From: Candidatus Bathyarchaeota archaeon
Lineage (GTDB): Archaea > Thermoproteota > Bathyarchaeia > 40CM-2-53-6
Length of the DNA: 60,123 nt
NCBI GenBank assembly: GCA_005881695.1
Contig: VBBT01000107.1
Coordinates: forward strand, 1-60,123
Direction of reading: 5' to 3'
The notes under the pieces are model-generated. The model was not told where the DNA came from. It worked only from the letters and a program-made list of their open reading frames with translations, and did no database searches. Below, piece by piece: positions 8,518 through 15,578 of this stretch; within the stretch, counting starts at the first letter, position 1, and each line of letters begins with the position of its first letter. Both the position numbers and the translations under genes were made by a program.

Positions 8518-9282
8518 TTGGATTTTTCATCCCGAAGAAAGTGGCGAGCTTGGCTTGCAAAGAACCACCGAATTGACAAGGAAATCTGGCTAGTCTATGA
8601 CAAGATATTTTTCCAAACGCGGGCAATCTCATACAGAGATTTCATCAGCTACGCGGTCGAAGAAGCGATATGCTACGGCTGGATTGATAGTAGAGTCAAG
8701 CGAATCGGCGAAACAAAACTTGGAGTACGCTTTACCCCACGTAGGTCGAGAGGCAACTGGTCGAAGTACAACGGGGCTCGCGCGTTGAATCTACTTCACA
8801 AGGGCAAGATGACAAAGGCAGGCATAGATGCTCTCCCACCAGAATGGACAAACAAGAATGTGGACAGACACCAAACTCATAGAAGAGCGATCGCTGACTG
8901 TGTGGATGGAATTCTCGTGGAGAGCAGGAAGTTCCTAGTCGAGAAAAGGCGAGATGACGACGTTGCGGATCCGGGACTGATAGAGATCCCTGGCGGTCAT
9001 GTGGACCCCGGCGAGACCTTGGAGGATGCTTTGAGAAGAGAGATGAAAGAAGAACTCGGAATCAACGTCGAGAAGGCTAGACTCGTGCAGAAGAGCTTGT
9101 ACACAGCGACCAGTGGCGAGAGACAGAGAATTCACTATTTCCACGTGGAGAAGTGGAACGGTAGAATCCGGTCTACAGAGGCAGAACGGGTTTATTGGGA
9201 TTCTGAGGTTTCCAATCTCAGCATTATCCCAGACAGAAGAGCCGTTCAGAAAATCTTGAGGGTCCAACACCACAGAAAATAG
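8518..9282 (+). CDS. YdeI/OmpD-associated-like domain fused to Nudix hydrolase
   Basis: N-term WLVYDKI...ISYRDFISYAVEEAICYGWIDSRVKRIGETKLGVRFTPRRSRGNWSKYN; C-term Nudix box GGHVDPGETLEDALRREMKEELGI. Confidence 0.8.
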   Translation: MDFSSRRKWRAWLAKNHRIDKEIWLVYDKIFFQTRAISYRDFISYAVEEAICYGWIDSRVKRIGETKLGVRFTPRRSRGNWSKYNGARALNLLHKGKMTKAGIDALPPEWTNKNVDRHQTHRRAIADCVDGILVESRKFLVEKRRDDDVADPGLIEIPGGHVDPGETLEDALRREMKEELGINVEKARLVQKSLYTATSGERQRIHYFHVEKWNGRIRSTEAERVYWDSEVSNLSIIPDRRAVQKILRVQHHRK

Positions 9283-9579
9283 ATAGGAGGGCCTCTGCGA
9301 AGCCGGCCAGTCGCAGGCAGCGAGTCCAGACCTGAGAGCCACCGTGAGGCTCTGGAGTTTACGGAGGACAGCTGTTTAGAGGGGGGTACTGGGGAACTCT
9401 AGTTTTGAGGCTCAGTTAGTTTATGAGGCCCGAGTCCCGAAAATCCTCTTTCCCGACGTTCCCAGGGCAGCCAATGGTTAGAGGAGTTACGATATCTGCG
9501 AAGCCAGGTAAGGGCCGAAATTCGGTACTACATAGATGCTCACAAGGCTCAGAGATTCAAGGTTAGCCTCTTCGAGCTA

Positions 9580-10782
9580 ATGAGCCTGAACAGTTTTCCC
9601 AACCCCGTCAACCAGACGCTTTACTTCAACAATGAGGAACACGAAGTCCCCTTCACGTACTCGATCAGAGGAAGGAGATACGAGCAAAAGCCGTTCAAAG
9701 AATGGTTCAAGCTCAAGCTGAGCGACAAGTGGATTTTCGAAGTGAAGAACACCCGGTCAGAACACGGTCGCTTCATCAGGCACAAACGACGAAACGAGAT
9801 GCTACCTCTTCGAGAAATCTTGTCGAGAGTAAAACGAATGGGCCAGCTCGGCCGTGTCCGAATTCCCCATAAACTCGGAATCTATGCGGCAGCCAGTTAT
9901 TCTAGAAATCACTTTCTTGAAAGCGATCGAGGAGTGAGGGTCACGATGGACGAAGATGTCCGGTACTTCACTTTCGATGGGCTTGCAGGGACAATGCTTG
10001 GCGCCTCGAACCGGGCCATTGTGGAGTTAAAGATTCCACCGGGCAGAACAAGTTCTCCACTAGTCAGAAAAATCCACAGTCTGCTTAGGAAAGAGAACGC
10101 GGAACAGGGAATTTCCAAGAAGGCCACGATCTTCAATCTCATCGAGGACCGAGCAAGGAAATCAGGCGAAGCCTACAAAGAACCGAGCCACAACACAGAG
10201 ATCAAAGCAAAAGTTGCGCTTGACGCAGAGGACCAGGACATTTTCCCCAGGATCAGGAGCGATCTAGCAAAAGGAAAAATCGAAGGCTTCAGACTCTCCG
10301 ACTCTTACCCAAGTGTTATGGAGACTGGTAAGCTCTACCACTACGTTCAGATGCCCACGCACGAGTACGTCAGGTTCGAAACCAGTGGGCAGTCAAGGTC
10401 CGCGACGATCAAGGAGAACTTTCAGGTCGTAGAGGATCCCTACAGACTCGGTAACGTGATCAAGAGGCGAGAGATTGAGGAGCCTATTCAGCCAGATATG
10501 CTGAAGATGCCCTACAAGATTCTCACCAGGAGGAGGAAGTACTTCATGGTTGAACGGGATGGGGGGAGAAGGGAGTACGCGGTGATGATGGATAGGAGCA
10601 CTCATCGAGGCCACGAACTCTACCAGCTGGAGGTTGAGGACGTTCTGAATTCTCCTTCTTCGAGGACAGAGACCCGGAGCATCAACGATGTGGCATCCAT
10701 GGCTAATTATCTCATAGAAGAGTATTCACTGGAACCTACGACATTGACGAAAAATCAGTGGCTGATGAGTCTGCCGAACTAG
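9580..10782 (+). CDS. Putative tandem triphosphate-tunnel (VTC-like + CYTH-like) protein
   Basis: First half: WIFEVKNTRSEHGRFIRHKR...YSRNHFLESDRGVRVTMDEDVRYF...AIVELKIPP. Second half: NTEIKAKVAL...LYHYVQMPTHEYVRFET...VIKRREIEEP...YKILTRRRKYFMVERD...MDRSTHRGHELYQLEVEDV. Adjacent to CHAD/Ppx/SixA/CYTH genes. Confidence 0.6.
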   Translation: MSLNSFPNPVNQTLYFNNEEHEVPFTYSIRGRRYEQKPFKEWFKLKLSDKWIFEVKNTRSEHGRFIRHKRRNEMLPLREILSRVKRMGQLGRVRIPHKLGIYAAASYSRNHFLESDRGVRVTMDEDVRYFTFDGLAGTMLGASNRAIVELKIPPGRTSSPLVRKIHSLLRKENAEQGISKKATIFNLIEDRARKSGEAYKEPSHNTEIKAKVALDAEDQDIFPRIRSDLAKGKIEGFRLSDSYPSVMETGKLYHYVQMPTHEYVRFETSGQSRSATIKENFQVVEDPYRLGNVIKRREIEEPIQPDMLKMPYKILTRRRKYFMVERDGGRREYAVMMDRSTHRGHELYQLEVEDVLNSPSSRTETRSINDVASMANYLIEEYSLEPTTLTKNQWLMSLPN

Positions 10783-10789
10783 GGTATCT

Positions 10790-11584
10790 TCAAGGTTTGG
10801 AGGCGATTCGCGAAACCGGATTCTCTCTGGAGACTTCGACGAATTTCCGATAGTTCTTATTCCGATTCTCGATCTCAATGTTCAGCGCTACTAGAATCTC
10901 CGCCGATCTTCTTAGCCCCTGAAGATACTCGATCATCACGTCATGGTCGCGTATTGTGCCAAGTAGGTCTTGCCACGATCGGAGGGTCGCTAGAGGTTTT
11001 GGAGGCCTTGAGAACTCTGACATTTCCAGAACATAACGAAGTTGTTTACAGTCTCTCCTTACGACGTGCAGTCCCTCCACTTTTGAAGGGTCCTCCCTTA
11101 CTAGCGGGAGTTCGCTGGTGATCTTCGAGCCTAGTTTTCTCACGACTTTGTTGTATCTTCTCTGGAGTATGGGGTCGGAAAGGTCTCTCGGTTTTACACG
11201 GGGTCCTGGGTCTTTCTGAACGGACAAAGCTAGCTCTTTCGCTTGCTCGAGGTGGGACTTGCGTGATTTCCTCAAATCCTCTATGAGCCGTTCGTACGCG
11301 GGATTCTGCTTGTACTCTGACAGCTTCGAGAGAATAATATCTTGGTCTCTCACACTAGCGTTTACTTTCATCAACTTCTTGATACGAGCCATGGCTTTCT
11401 GTGCCTTGTTCTGGTTCCTCGTGGCCTTTGGAAGCAATGCGAAGGCTGACTGCAGTCGACGGGTCGCGGTCCGAAGCCTGTGAACGTTCTCGGCGTTTGG
11501 GTCTCTGAGGTAGGCCTTGACTCTCCGAGTCAGCGCTTTCGCGAATCTGGTGTACTCCTTCGCAAAAGACTCGCGGGTAATCAA
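10790..11584 (-). CDS. CHAD domain protein
   Basis: NVHRLRTATRRLQSAFALL...ASVRDQDIILSKL...EGLHVVRRDCKQLRYVLEM...TIRDHDVMIEYL; conserved His/Arg helices typical of CHAD. Confidence 0.85.
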   Translation of the reverse strand: MITRESFAKEYTRFAKALTRRVKAYLRDPNAENVHRLRTATRRLQSAFALLPKATRNQNKAQKAMARIKKLMKVNASVRDQDIILSKLSEYKQNPAYERLIEDLRKSRKSHLEQAKELALSVQKDPGPRVKPRDLSDPILQRRYNKVVRKLGSKITSELPLVREDPSKVEGLHVVRRDCKQLRYVLEMSEFSRPPKPLATLRSWQDLLGTIRDHDVMIEYLQGLRRSAEILVALNIEIENRNKNYRKFVEVSRENPVSRIASKP

Positions 11585-11632
11585 GGGAAGGCTGGGTTCG
11601 AGAAGTGAGACTACTTAGGTTTTCTTCGGCGG

Positions 11633-13096
11633 CTACAGGGCGAGCTGAAGATTGAAAGCGCCTTCAAGGTCCTCGAGGTCTCTCAGGATATTCTTCATGA
11701 GCACCTTTGGGATGTGTTGCTTGCCTTGGACTATGTGAAGGCGGGGGACCCCGCGCTCAGAACTCATGGTTAGATCGATGTCCGTCTTCTGTTGGAGTTG
11801 AGCGAGTTGTATCAGGACTGAGATCTTCTTCACCATCTCCATGCTTTTCTTGTCAAGCAGGCGCTTGTAGCTAGTCTCTACCCAATCTGTCCTTCTCATC
11901 CCATTTGCTCTTGCAACAGACAGGGCCATAATGAGCTGGTCCACGTGTGACAGGACACTATCCGCCTCCAATACTATGTAGAAAAGGGTCTCGGGATTGT
12001 AGATGGGAAGGTCCGGCAAGACGTGATCGAGGGCTTCGGAAAGAATCGCGTACTCCCTCTTTGTCAGGTTTCTATGTGATAAGAGAGACTTGGCCAGTTT
12101 TTCTTGGGCGGAAGCTTTCACGTGCGCTTGTGCCCCTTCGCGCATCAGAACTCTGTCTACGAGTCCTTGGCGGTACGAGCTAGGGCTTTCGAGGAAACCT
12201 GAGAGCACCCCGTCCCTAAGACCATGGGTACTAACAATGAGTTTGCGGAAACCAATCTTCTCCATCAAGAGGTGAACTACTAGGGACCCGGCGATGATTG
12301 ATTGGCTTCTCTCTTGACCTATGGCTGGATTCTTTCTGATTGCTCTTAGACTCATTCTGCGAAGGGCGCGGTGTACTGATTCCACGGCGTTCCTCTTCAT
12401 CGAGTAATTGTGCAGCTTGTTGAGCGGGTACTTGCGACGCATCTGGTCATACCTGGCTAATGCGCGCACGGAGCCTCCGACCCCTACGAGGTCGAGGCTT
12501 TTCGAAGTTGGAAGATGTTTCTTCTCCGGCAGGAGTTCAAGTATCCGTTTTCTCATCCGTGCATAGTTTTTCTTTGTGTAAGACCCATTTGGTTTAGCGT
12601 AGAGGTCTGTTAGCCTTAATCCTCCTAGAGGGACTGAGAGGATTTTTCTGATAGTCGGCTCCGAGTAGATGACCATCTCAAGGCTTCCTCCTCCAAGGTC
12701 GAAGAACAAGCCGGCATGAACGCTGGTCGCGCTCTTCGCTCCTTCGAACGCGTATACCGCTTCTTCTTTTTCGGAGAGAACTTTGAACTTGAACCCAGTC
12801 TCCTGGTAGGCTTGTTTGAGGAACTCCTCTCGGTTCCCAGCCTCCCTAACGGCGCTGGTAGCGACAGGGAGGACGTAGCTTGATCGCTCAAGGTCAACAA
12901 TCGCGCGGAACTGTTTCAGAGCTTTGAGAGTACGTCGGATGGGTTTGTCTCCGAGAAAGCCCGTTTGATCAAGCCCTTCTCCAACCTTCGCGAGGACCGA
13001 ATGCTGTCCATACGCGACGAACGACTTGTCCCGCCTAACTTTGTAGTTCACCAGTTTTAGCGAGTTGTAGCCTAGGTCTATCACGGAGACTTTCAA
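11633..13096 (-). CDS. Exopolyphosphatase / Ppx-GppA family
   Basis: MKVSVIDLGYNSLKLVNYKV...LPVATSAVREAGNREEFL...VLSEKEEAVYAFEGAKSA...GLFFDLGGGSLEMV, plus C-terminal helical domain. Confidence 0.9.
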   Translation of the reverse strand: MKVSVIDLGYNSLKLVNYKVRRDKSFVAYGQHSVLAKVGEGLDQTGFLGDKPIRRTLKALKQFRAIVDLERSSYVLPVATSAVREAGNREEFLKQAYQETGFKFKVLSEKEEAVYAFEGAKSATSVHAGLFFDLGGGSLEMVIYSEPTIRKILSVPLGGLRLTDLYAKPNGSYTKKNYARMRKRILELLPEKKHLPTSKSLDLVGVGGSVRALARYDQMRRKYPLNKLHNYSMKRNAVESVHRALRRMSLRAIRKNPAIGQERSQSIIAGSLVVHLLMEKIGFRKLIVSTHGLRDGVLSGFLESPSSYRQGLVDRVLMREGAQAHVKASAQEKLAKSLLSHRNLTKREYAILSEALDHVLPDLPIYNPETLFYIVLEADSVLSHVDQLIMALSVARANGMRRTDWVETSYKRLLDKKSMEMVKKISVLIQLAQLQQKTDIDLTMSSERGVPRLHIVQGKQHIPKVLMKNILRDLEDLEGAFNLQLAL

Positions 13097-13164
13097 ACTT
13101 GGCTAGGCCCGCCCGTCGTTTACGTTTCACTTCGGCGGGTTCAAGGGTATTCGTCTTGGACTTA

Positions 13165-13782
13165 TCAAGACATCTTAGCGATAATTTTCGGCGTGAGAAG
13201 CCAACGGAGTTCGCCGGAGATTCGAGGTGAAAACGATGTTATTCGGACTTTTGCGACCCCTCCCTTTTTCAGAACGATTTTGGCGCTCGTGGTCCCGATG
13301 ATCTCTCCTATCATGGAAGTCAGGTAAGGTTCGTGGCCTACAAGGATTGGTCTGAGGTTTTGTTCGAGTCGTGCAAGTTTGCGATAGAGTCCTGTTTTGC
13401 TTCCGTCTGGTTTCAATTCGTCCCATTCTTCCAATGTCGGGATCTCGAGGATCTTGGCCGCAATTTCAGCGGTCTCTCGAGCTCTTCTCAACGGACTTGT
13501 ATAGATCCGGTCGGTTTGCAATCCGATTGCCTTCAATGACTTTGCTATTTTCTGCATCTCGGTTCGGCCTTCTGGTGTTAGGGGTCGTTCGGAATCCTTC
13601 TCCACAACTGTCATTCGGTTCCCAGCCTCCCCATGCCTGAGTATGAAGAGGTCGATTTTCGCAGAGCCCGCCTTCTTTGATGGAGTCGGAACGGGCGTTA
13701 GTGAGGGTGCTCTCTTTATTTCGACCTCTTTTTTGTCCGAGAAGGCGCGCCGTTGTCTCCTTGCTCTCTTGGGCTCTGTCAA
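13165..13782 (-). CDS. Histidine phosphatase, SixA-like
   Basis: IDLFILRHGEAGNR...RPLTPEGRTEMQKIAKSL...IYTSPLRRARETAEIAA...ILVGHEPYLTSMIG. Confidence 0.88.
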   Translation of the reverse strand: MTEPKRARRQRRAFSDKKEVEIKRAPSLTPVPTPSKKAGSAKIDLFILRHGEAGNRMTVVEKDSERPLTPEGRTEMQKIAKSLKAIGLQTDRIYTSPLRRARETAEIAAKILEIPTLEEWDELKPDGSKTGLYRKLARLEQNLRPILVGHEPYLTSMIGEIIGTTSAKIVLKKGGVAKVRITSFSPRISGELRWLLTPKIIAKMS

Positions 13783-13849
13783 CTGTCCCTATGGCAAGTT
13801 TCGGTGAGTCAGATAAAGTTCAGTAACCGCACCTTCTCCGTTCAAAACC

Positions 13850-14656
13850 ATGAGTTGGACTAGGATGGTCAAGCTACCGCGGGCTCTCGGTTTCGGCCGG
13901 GAGATCGAATCGATCCTCCTCATACTGTCAGACCATCCTGAGGAAATTGTTAGAAAGATTGCTGATAAGAAAAGTGTCGGAGATTATCGTCTGGTTGGAG
14001 AGAAGACTAAGTTTCTTGCCGACACATACTTCGACACTCTCAACCACTTTCTTTCGCATCGCAAGTTGAATCTGAGAATACGGGCAGACAACCAGGATCG
14101 TTGGATCACCATGAAGACGCATCCTAGACGAACTCTGTGGGGTGGAATGGTCCGAGCTGAAATGGAGGTTCCCTGGTCACAGGAGATTGTTGAAAAAGTG
14201 GTTTCCGAGCTGAAAATCCCGCATCAGCCCCCTAGTTCTGCCGGCCAGATCAATCCTTCAGACCCGATTGAACTATTGAAGAGTAAAGGCCTTGTTCCTA
14301 TCCAGCATAGAGAGACCCAACGGCAGGTACGAGATGTGACGTCCAGCCCTGAAGGGTCCCCCGTCCTAGCCGAACTAGACATTGACTCAGTGCTTTACGA
14401 CTTCGACGATCAAAAGATACGCCTTTTCGAGGTCGAAGTGGAGAGTAAGTCCGAAAAAGGTCAGAACGTAGTCAAGAGCGTTACCAGGAGCCTGAAGGGA
14501 GAGTACGGCCATATCTTACGAAGCTGGCGTCACGGAAAACTCGCGACTGGAACGGGGATCGCTAAGCTGTTGAAATCGGGAGAGCTGAAACCTCTCATCG
14601 ATGCTGAAAACCGGCTTCTACCGGCCGCCTACGACAGGCTCAACCGAATACTCTGA
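13850..14656 (+). CDS. CYTH domain (triphosphate tunnel) protein
   Basis: GREIESILLIL...FLADTYFDTLNHFLSHRKLNLRIRADNQDRWITMKTHPRR...RAEMEV...AELDIDSVLYDFDDQKIRLFEVEVESKS. Confidence 0.75.
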   Translation: MSWTRMVKLPRALGFGREIESILLILSDHPEEIVRKIADKKSVGDYRLVGEKTKFLADTYFDTLNHFLSHRKLNLRIRADNQDRWITMKTHPRRTLWGGMVRAEMEVPWSQEIVEKVVSELKIPHQPPSSAGQINPSDPIELLKSKGLVPIQHRETQRQVRDVTSSPEGSPVLAELDIDSVLYDFDDQKIRLFEVEVESKSEKGQNVVKSVTRSLKGEYGHILRSWRHGKLATGTGIAKLLKSGELKPLIDAENRLLPAAYDRLNRIL

Positions 14657-14717
14657 CGCCCCGTATCGGACAAGATATGTCCAGGTAATCTTCTTAGCAT
14701 CGAGGGCCCACGTCATA

Positions 14718-15059
14718 GTGGGGAGAGTATTGCTCCGCCCTAAGAGAGGCGAGGCTATCGCGTCCGTTCTCTTCGCTTTCACAGCCACCGGCTTAATCGC
14801 CCTCTTGTACAACCTTAACCCGTTCAATAGCTGGGCGCTCTTGGTCGGAGTCTGGGCGAGTTCGGAAGCACTCATGCTCTATCTCTTTCAGAACCAGCGT
14901 AGGAATGAAAAAAAATTCCAAAAGCGTCCAGTCAGCTTTCCCAACCCCGAAGGCGGCGGAATTCTCGGCGAATACGTGAACCGTCCTTGGCATAACGAGC
15001 TTGCCGAGCTTGGCCGACGATACCCGAGCAAGAAGGCGAAGAAAAAAAAGAAGGATTAG
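14718..15059 (+). CDS. Small membrane protein with Lys-rich tail
   Basis: In-frame internal start of ORF 14601..15059; two hydrophobic segments and C-term SKKAKKKKKD. The longer ORF overlaps the CYTH gene. Confidence 0.45.
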   Translation: MGRVLLRPKRGEAIASVLFAFTATGLIALLYNLNPFNSWALLVGVWASSEALMLYLFQNQRRNEKKFQKRPVSFPNPEGGGILGEYVNRPWHNELAELGRRYPSKKAKKKKKD

Positions 15060-15578
15060 ATGGTGGTCTCCCACGACACCAAGAGGATACTAGGTATCTC
15101 AAGCCTGGTGCTAATACTTGTCCTTCTTCTGGCGAGAGGCCTGCCCTTCCCTTTTCCCGGTTCACAACCATCAGCATCTCCCCGTATCCGGTACGCGCCG
15201 AGTCTAATCTTCCATGACAATGTTTCGTTCAACGGTCCGGCTCCAACTTTCAATTTGACCCTGATTCACTCCCACTCTTACATGTGGACGTTCAACGTCA
15301 CGGCCGGTTCTGTTAAGATCAATTTGACTGACCCTAAGACTGGCAATGTCTTTTGGACGGTCGGACCTCGTTCACTAGGGCAATGGCACCTGAATGGTAC
15401 TGGTTCTGTTAGTTTCAACTGGACGGCCCCGGCCTCGACATACTATTCAATGGTTCTCGAAAACCTGAACATCACCCGATCCCCGTGGTCATCGACTTGG
15501 TTCGTGGGCGGCTCTCTATATTTTTCGTGCGACATGCATGTGTGGGACCTGGATACCCCCGAGGTCCACTTCTTATGA
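15060..15578 (+). CDS. Predicted exported/membrane-anchored beta-rich protein
   Basis: N-terminal TM (ILGISSLVLILVLLLARGLPF) followed by a beta-rich domain with several NxS/T sites. Confidence 0.55.
   Translation: MVVSHDTKRILGISSLVLILVLLLARGLPFPFPGSQPSASPRIRYAPSLIFHDNVSFNGPAPTFNLTLIHSHSYMWTFNVTAGSVKINLTDPKTGNVFWTVGPRSLGQWHLNGTGSVSFNWTAPASTYYSMVLENLNITRSPWSSTWFVGGSLYFSCDMHVWDLDTPEVHFL

Follow-up and report, generated by a model that had tools for sequence, protein, structure and literature searches.

A VTC-type protein in place of a thymidylate-kinase-like pair in a putative polyphosphate locus of soil archaea

The window analysed here is the whole 60,123-nucleotide stretch of contig VBBT01000107.1 (assembly GCA_005881695.1; positions 1 to 60,123, forward strand) of a Candidatus Bathyarchaeota archaeon. 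The locus under study, at 9496..14656, comprises five adjacent open reading frames (ORFs) encoding VTC, CHAD, PPX, SixA and CYTH proteins. We regard as evenly balanced the proposal that this is a variant of an archaeal polyphosphate (polyP) locus, in which a pair of thymidylate-kinase-like genes has been displaced by a VTC-type protein that would make polyP from ATP. PolyP is a phosphate-storage polymer whose VTC-type synthesis is known from eukaryotes, and we know of no demonstrated polyP role for a prokaryotic VTC-domain protein. The route by which Thermoproteota make polyP is a long-standing question. Crenarchaeota have no recognisable PPK1 or PPK2 (PMC6864096), and it was only in 2024 that a family-3 polyP kinase was reported, from Sulfolobus acidocaldarius (as cited in PMC11677633). 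With a distant VTC relative standing where related archaea have a kinase-like pair, polyP may therefore be made by a route not yet described in archaea, and the locus gives an opening for testing whether eukaryotes are alone in having VTC polymerases.

Gene content and conservation of the locus

The five ORFs and their domains had been named in a first-pass annotation of the sequence, and all five products scored above their curated Pfam gathering cut-offs. The genes for the SixA-type histidine phosphatase (13165..13782; 205 amino acids), the PPX/GppA exopolyphosphatase (11633..13096; 487 amino acids) and CHAD (10790..11584; 264 amino acids) lie on the minus strand. On the plus strand, the gene for the divergent VTC-domain protein (9496..10782; 428 amino acids) converges on CHAD with a gap of 7 bp, and the gene for the stand-alone CYTH protein (13850..14656; 268 amino acids) diverges from SixA across a 67-bp intergenic region (13783..13849), which would likely hold the promoters of both genes. 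The five genes are not one operon.

The CHAD protein matched Pfam CHAD with 82.1 bits (E 7.6e-23), and its H35, R38 and R42 form an HxxRxxxR motif with the spacing of His29, Arg32 and Arg36 of SsCHAD; the basic residues of this motif bind polyP in Sulfolobus CHAD, and the domain binds polyP specifically (PMC6537752). The PPX protein matched Pfam Ppx-GppA with 148.6 bits (E 3.4e-43) and contains the phosphate-loop motifs DLGYNS, SEKEEA and DLGGGS; against the NCBIfam model exo_poly_only (TIGR03706) it scored 245.9 bits (E 5.4e-73), which is below the cut-off of 307 for that model. For SixA, matches were obtained to Pfam His_Phos_1 (54.4 bits) and, above its cut-off, to NCBIfam sixA (TIGR00249; 88.9 bits), and RHG and GHE motifs are present. 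The CYTH protein matched Pfam CYTH with 55.7 bits (cut-off 23.2; E 7.3e-15), its single PDB match being a weak one to YgiF. It shares family membership with the CYTH triphosphatases YgiF of Escherichia coli and SaTTM of Sulfolobus, and YgiF too combines CYTH with CHAD; unlike in these enzymes, however, the hallmark ExExK reads EIESI in all nine aligned orthologs, with both glutamates kept and the lysine gone. The PPX/GppA and CYTH families also include enzymes of nucleotide metabolism, and GppA models match the PPX protein weakly, so that the cluster could instead handle nucleotides, with PPX/GppA acting on (p)ppGpp-like molecules and CYTH on nucleoside triphosphates or a cyclic nucleotide. 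We consider this highly improbable, as exo_poly_only scores far better than GppA on the PPX protein, the binding specificity of CHAD is for polyP, and the class IV cyclase signature HFxxxxExExK (PMC8233210) is absent from the CYTH protein.

The host belongs to a soil-dwelling archaeal genus; relatives have been deposited as Candidatus Bathyarchaeota or Crenarchaeota metagenome-assembled genomes. Among close relatives, synteny extends far beyond the locus and is hence little informative. In two more divergent genomes (G002 and G011), the VTC protein is 58% identical to that of the window and its gene still adjoins CHAD. In G002 a single contig carries the order SixA–PPX–CHAD–VTC, and in G011 the set is spread over two contigs, with the break within CHAD. 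The gene beyond SixA is a DEAD-box helicase in G002 and another unrelated gene in G011, and CYTH occupies that spot in neither. Conservation of the neighbourhood, which had been named beforehand as a check on the reading, was therefore found for a core of SixA–PPX–CHAD and VTC, and the five genes do not travel as a unit, since CYTH is not beside this core in G002 or G011. The gene set is more than a chance grouping, given retention of the core in congeners at this level of VTC identity.

Gene start, fold and tunnel residues of the VTC protein

The VTC gene had initially been assigned an ATG start at 9580, which is 84 bases too late. The reading frame is open for 51 codons upstream of this ATG, and the conserved protein sequence of relatives runs on upstream of the same position (RAEIRYY), extending to a CTG at 9496 that is preceded by a GAGGAG stretch. 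Across 12 compared sequences the start codon is CTG in 6 and otherwise TTG or GTG, apart from G002, which has an ATG one codon upstream. In G004, a TAG stop lies directly before the TTG start codon, so no translation start further upstream is possible in that genome. The gene thus probably starts at about 9496, with CTG as its start codon (9496..9498, plus strand), and the feature was taken as 9496..14656 because of this shift. The corrected start restores the first tunnel strand of the protein, and the E value of the Pfam VTC match went from 3.7e-6 to 3.7e-8 (33.6 bits; cut-off 23).

A triphosphate tunnel metalloenzyme (TTM) fold had been proposed for this gene product, and modelling agrees with it. 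The N-terminal TTM domain would span approximately residues 6–205, and an AlphaFold2 (AF2) model was usable over approximately residues 7–205, where the predicted local distance difference test (pLDDT) score was mostly 70–90. Foldseek searches with this model returned VTC chains (yeast Vtc4, Vtc2 and Vtc3) as the top eight matches (probability 1.00), ahead of all CYTH enzymes, so that the nearest solved structures to the predicted fold are those of the VTC family; the TM-scores of these matches were modest because half of the model is unreliable.

For residue mapping, the protein was aligned with yeast Vtc4 (sequence checked against PDB chains) and with the VTC proteins of related archaea. Positions K200, K281, R361, R373, E426 and K458 of Vtc4 correspond to R10, K84, R137, R148, E177 and K209, all of which are invariant in 11 VTC orthologs, the first catalytic position showing a conservative lysine-to-arginine change. 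Vtc4 residues R264 and R266 are essential in yeast; together with E426, they are the residues altered in mutant yeast Vtc4 constructs made for structures. The sequence alignment is gapped around this pair, and by strand order the candidate counterpart is an invariant RxRRY at residues 58–62. The archaeal protein accordingly resembles yeast Vtc4 (PDB 3G3Q) in Pfam family, best Foldseek matches and most catalytic tunnel positions. It differs in having R10 for K200, in the insecure placement of the R264/R266 counterparts, in the presence of an extra C-terminal domain, and in having neither an SPX nor a membrane domain; VTC was the sole Pfam domain found, with no match to SPX, and no likely transmembrane segment was seen in the protein (maximum 19-residue hydropathy 0.75).

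The second domain, comprising the C-terminal ~200 residues (approximately 229–428), is conserved. In the divergent orthologs of G002 and G011 it opens with TEIEAK, a stretch bearing the ExExK hallmark of CYTH, and in the window clade this reads TEIKAK. Judged by this motif, the domain is probably a CYTH-like barrel, that is, a second and partly degenerate tunnel domain. A firm CYTH assignment was not accepted, as neither Pfam nor a PDB profile search gave a match for the domain and its AF2 pLDDT was 35. Profile–profile comparisons of the two halves of the protein with each other and with the CYTH protein gave no significant result, for which the shallow alignments are at least part of the reason. 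In one further genome (G006; L011 / L014, contig C10) the VTC gene is split into two frames with stops, representing either a pseudogene or an assembly error.

Thymidylate-kinase-like genes, PPK2 and polyP synthesis

In biomining archaea, SixA, PPX, dTMP kinase and CHAD have been described together (PMC10892726). The window locus resembles this cluster of biomining archaea and Sulfolobales in having SixA, PPX and CHAD side by side, and the PPX of the genus is closest to kinase-linked PPX genes; it differs in having a VTC protein and a CYTH gene and no thymidylate-kinase-like pair, such genes next to PPX or SixA being absent from the window. Because SixA–PPX–CHAD is already a known archaeal cluster, what is new is a VTC protein where the kinase genes would otherwise stand. 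Archaeal VTC domains and CYTH–CHAD links are likewise already known separately, and no report of a VTC protein in a polyP locus, exchanged with a kinase pair inside one genus, was found in the literature searched.

Within the genus, the order in G010 is SixA–PPX–kinase–kinase–CHAD, and G009 has SixA–PPX–kinase and then part of another kinase, where the contig ends. In both genomes the kinases match Pfam thymidylate kinase, and neither genome, both being incomplete, gave a VTC match. At a different site G009 also carries a further thymidylate kinase of weak similarity; VTC-bearing genomes either have nothing closer than such a copy (~30%) or have none at all. Members of the genus carry either the VTC protein or the kinase pair, which amounts to a specific natural exchange. 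Across the phylum, thymidylate-kinase-like genes adjoin PPX in 18 of the 30 PPX loci examined, and the pair was confirmed on longer stretches in 9 of 16. Some caution in regarding the pair as a polyP synthase is advised by the closest solved structure to one of its members, 2plr, which is annotated as a probable thymidylate kinase. The family-3 polyP kinase of S. acidocaldarius is probably of the thymidylate-kinase family, in which case the kinase pair would be the ancestral synthase.

In a PPX tree, the root of which is not fixed, a single clade (98/98) unites the six tested copies that are linked to VTC; it is sister to the G009 and G010 copies (100/99) and nested in a larger kinase-linked PPX group (85/97). 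The simplest history would have the kinase pair lost and VTC gained within the genus. An unusual fusion related to polyP occurs in another family of the class (L126:3627-5951 and L127:3463-5775): immediately ahead of PPX stands a gene whose product joins CHAD to a calcineurin-like phosphoesterase and an HD / Ppx-GppA domain III region.

In the proposed mechanism, the VTC domain would transfer phosphate from ATP to a growing polyP chain in its basic tunnel, CHAD would bind the chain and PPX would trim it, releasing phosphate, and a PPK2 from another part of the genome would convert polyP back to nucleoside di- and triphosphates. Having neither a membrane helix nor an SPX domain, the VTC enzyme would be cytoplasmic, with no coupling to membrane transport or to inositol-pyrophosphate sensing; the CYTH protein, if active, might remove tripolyphosphate. 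The observations cover which genes are present, the predicted class of fold, the conserved residues of the tunnel, the retained neighbourhood and the lack of both the kinase pair and PPK1; polymerisation from ATP, the direction in which phosphate flows and what SixA and CYTH do are inferred. In its fullest form, the proposal is that polyP is made by a soluble archaeal polymerase of the VTC type, which has two tunnel domains and has displaced an ancestral thymidylate-kinase-like polyP kinase pair in one genus, which would be a non-orthologous replacement and a case of VTC-type polyP synthesis outside eukaryotes. We put this forward tentatively, at somewhat less than even confidence.

A number of observations weigh against polyP synthesis by the VTC protein. 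The AF2 model had 11 similar sequences behind it and is unreliable in its C-terminal half, Vtc4 R264/R266 are not securely placed, and VTC is not in one transcript with PPX–CHAD. Similarity to the VTC family is modest, and no relative was found outside the genus, neither with the family profile in 400 phylum genomes nor in plasmids. Methanosarcina and members of this phylum do match PF09359. The other VTC genes of the class (L142–L151) share the Pfam family and an RxExK/R-type first strand with the window's protein, but theirs are single-domain products of ~245 amino acids scoring 99–134 bits to this model. A canonical archaeal VTC gene among them (L143:35-2220) lies beside a gene for a DUF4956-like membrane protein and CotH-like / lamin-tail-like genes (by eye), and not beside PPX or CHAD, a setting that does not look polyP-related. 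That context, at the one other VTC locus read in the class and with neighbours assigned by eye, would suit a surface or modification role for the VTC-like protein, its polyP neighbours being accidental. Such a role is very unlikely: no DUF4956-like or CotH-like neighbour was seen in the window or its relatives, linkage to CHAD and PPX is retained in the divergent congeners, and the window's protein gave only a marginal match to a model built from those VTC proteins.

The remaining point against VTC-type synthesis is PPK2 as an alternative synthase. Of the polyP kinases PPK1 and PPK2, the first gave no match in the 18 genus genomes (the seven controls matched as expected), and the second was found outside the window, on another contig of the same genome. 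The gene set had been read as a self-contained polyP system; this was rejected, because the PPK2 gene stands apart from the set and co-occurs with VTC. PPK2 was detected in 11 of 12 VTC-bearing genomes versus none of the 6 without VTC (Fisher p 4e-4, a value inflated by the close kinship of most of the genomes and by gaps in several of them). It is possible, if rather unlikely, that PPK2 makes polyP and replaced the kinase pair, with the VTC-like protein serving as a tri- or polyphosphatase or as a non-catalytic polyP binder (as Vtc2/Vtc3 in yeast), leaving the locus itself to bind, sense and degrade polyP but not to make it. The co-occurrence and the unsettled placement of R264/R266 favour this, and most known prokaryotic TTM enzymes hydrolyse, archaeal SaTTM being a triphosphatase (PMC8233210). 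Against PPK2 as the synthase, VTC is linked to the locus and PPK2 is not, and the PPK2 frame of the window's genome (L001:1453-2112, G000 contig C144) contains one in-frame TAG near its 5' end, without counterpart in relatives, which is a genuine lesion or else a fault of the assembly. Moreover, this PPK2 belongs to the PPK2_rel_1 group, which is mainly polyP-consuming and favours nucleotide phosphorylation.

Flanking genes

Two short ORFs at 14601-15578 overlap or follow CYTH. They are present in some close relatives and are not part of the core, because they are missing in others (G007 and G017). Just upstream of VTC and on the same strand, 8518-9282 encodes a two-part protein with a NUDIX domain; it was not found beside VTC in G002, and it accompanies the gene in close relatives. 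Some NUDIX enzymes are reported to act on polyP (PMC6522730).

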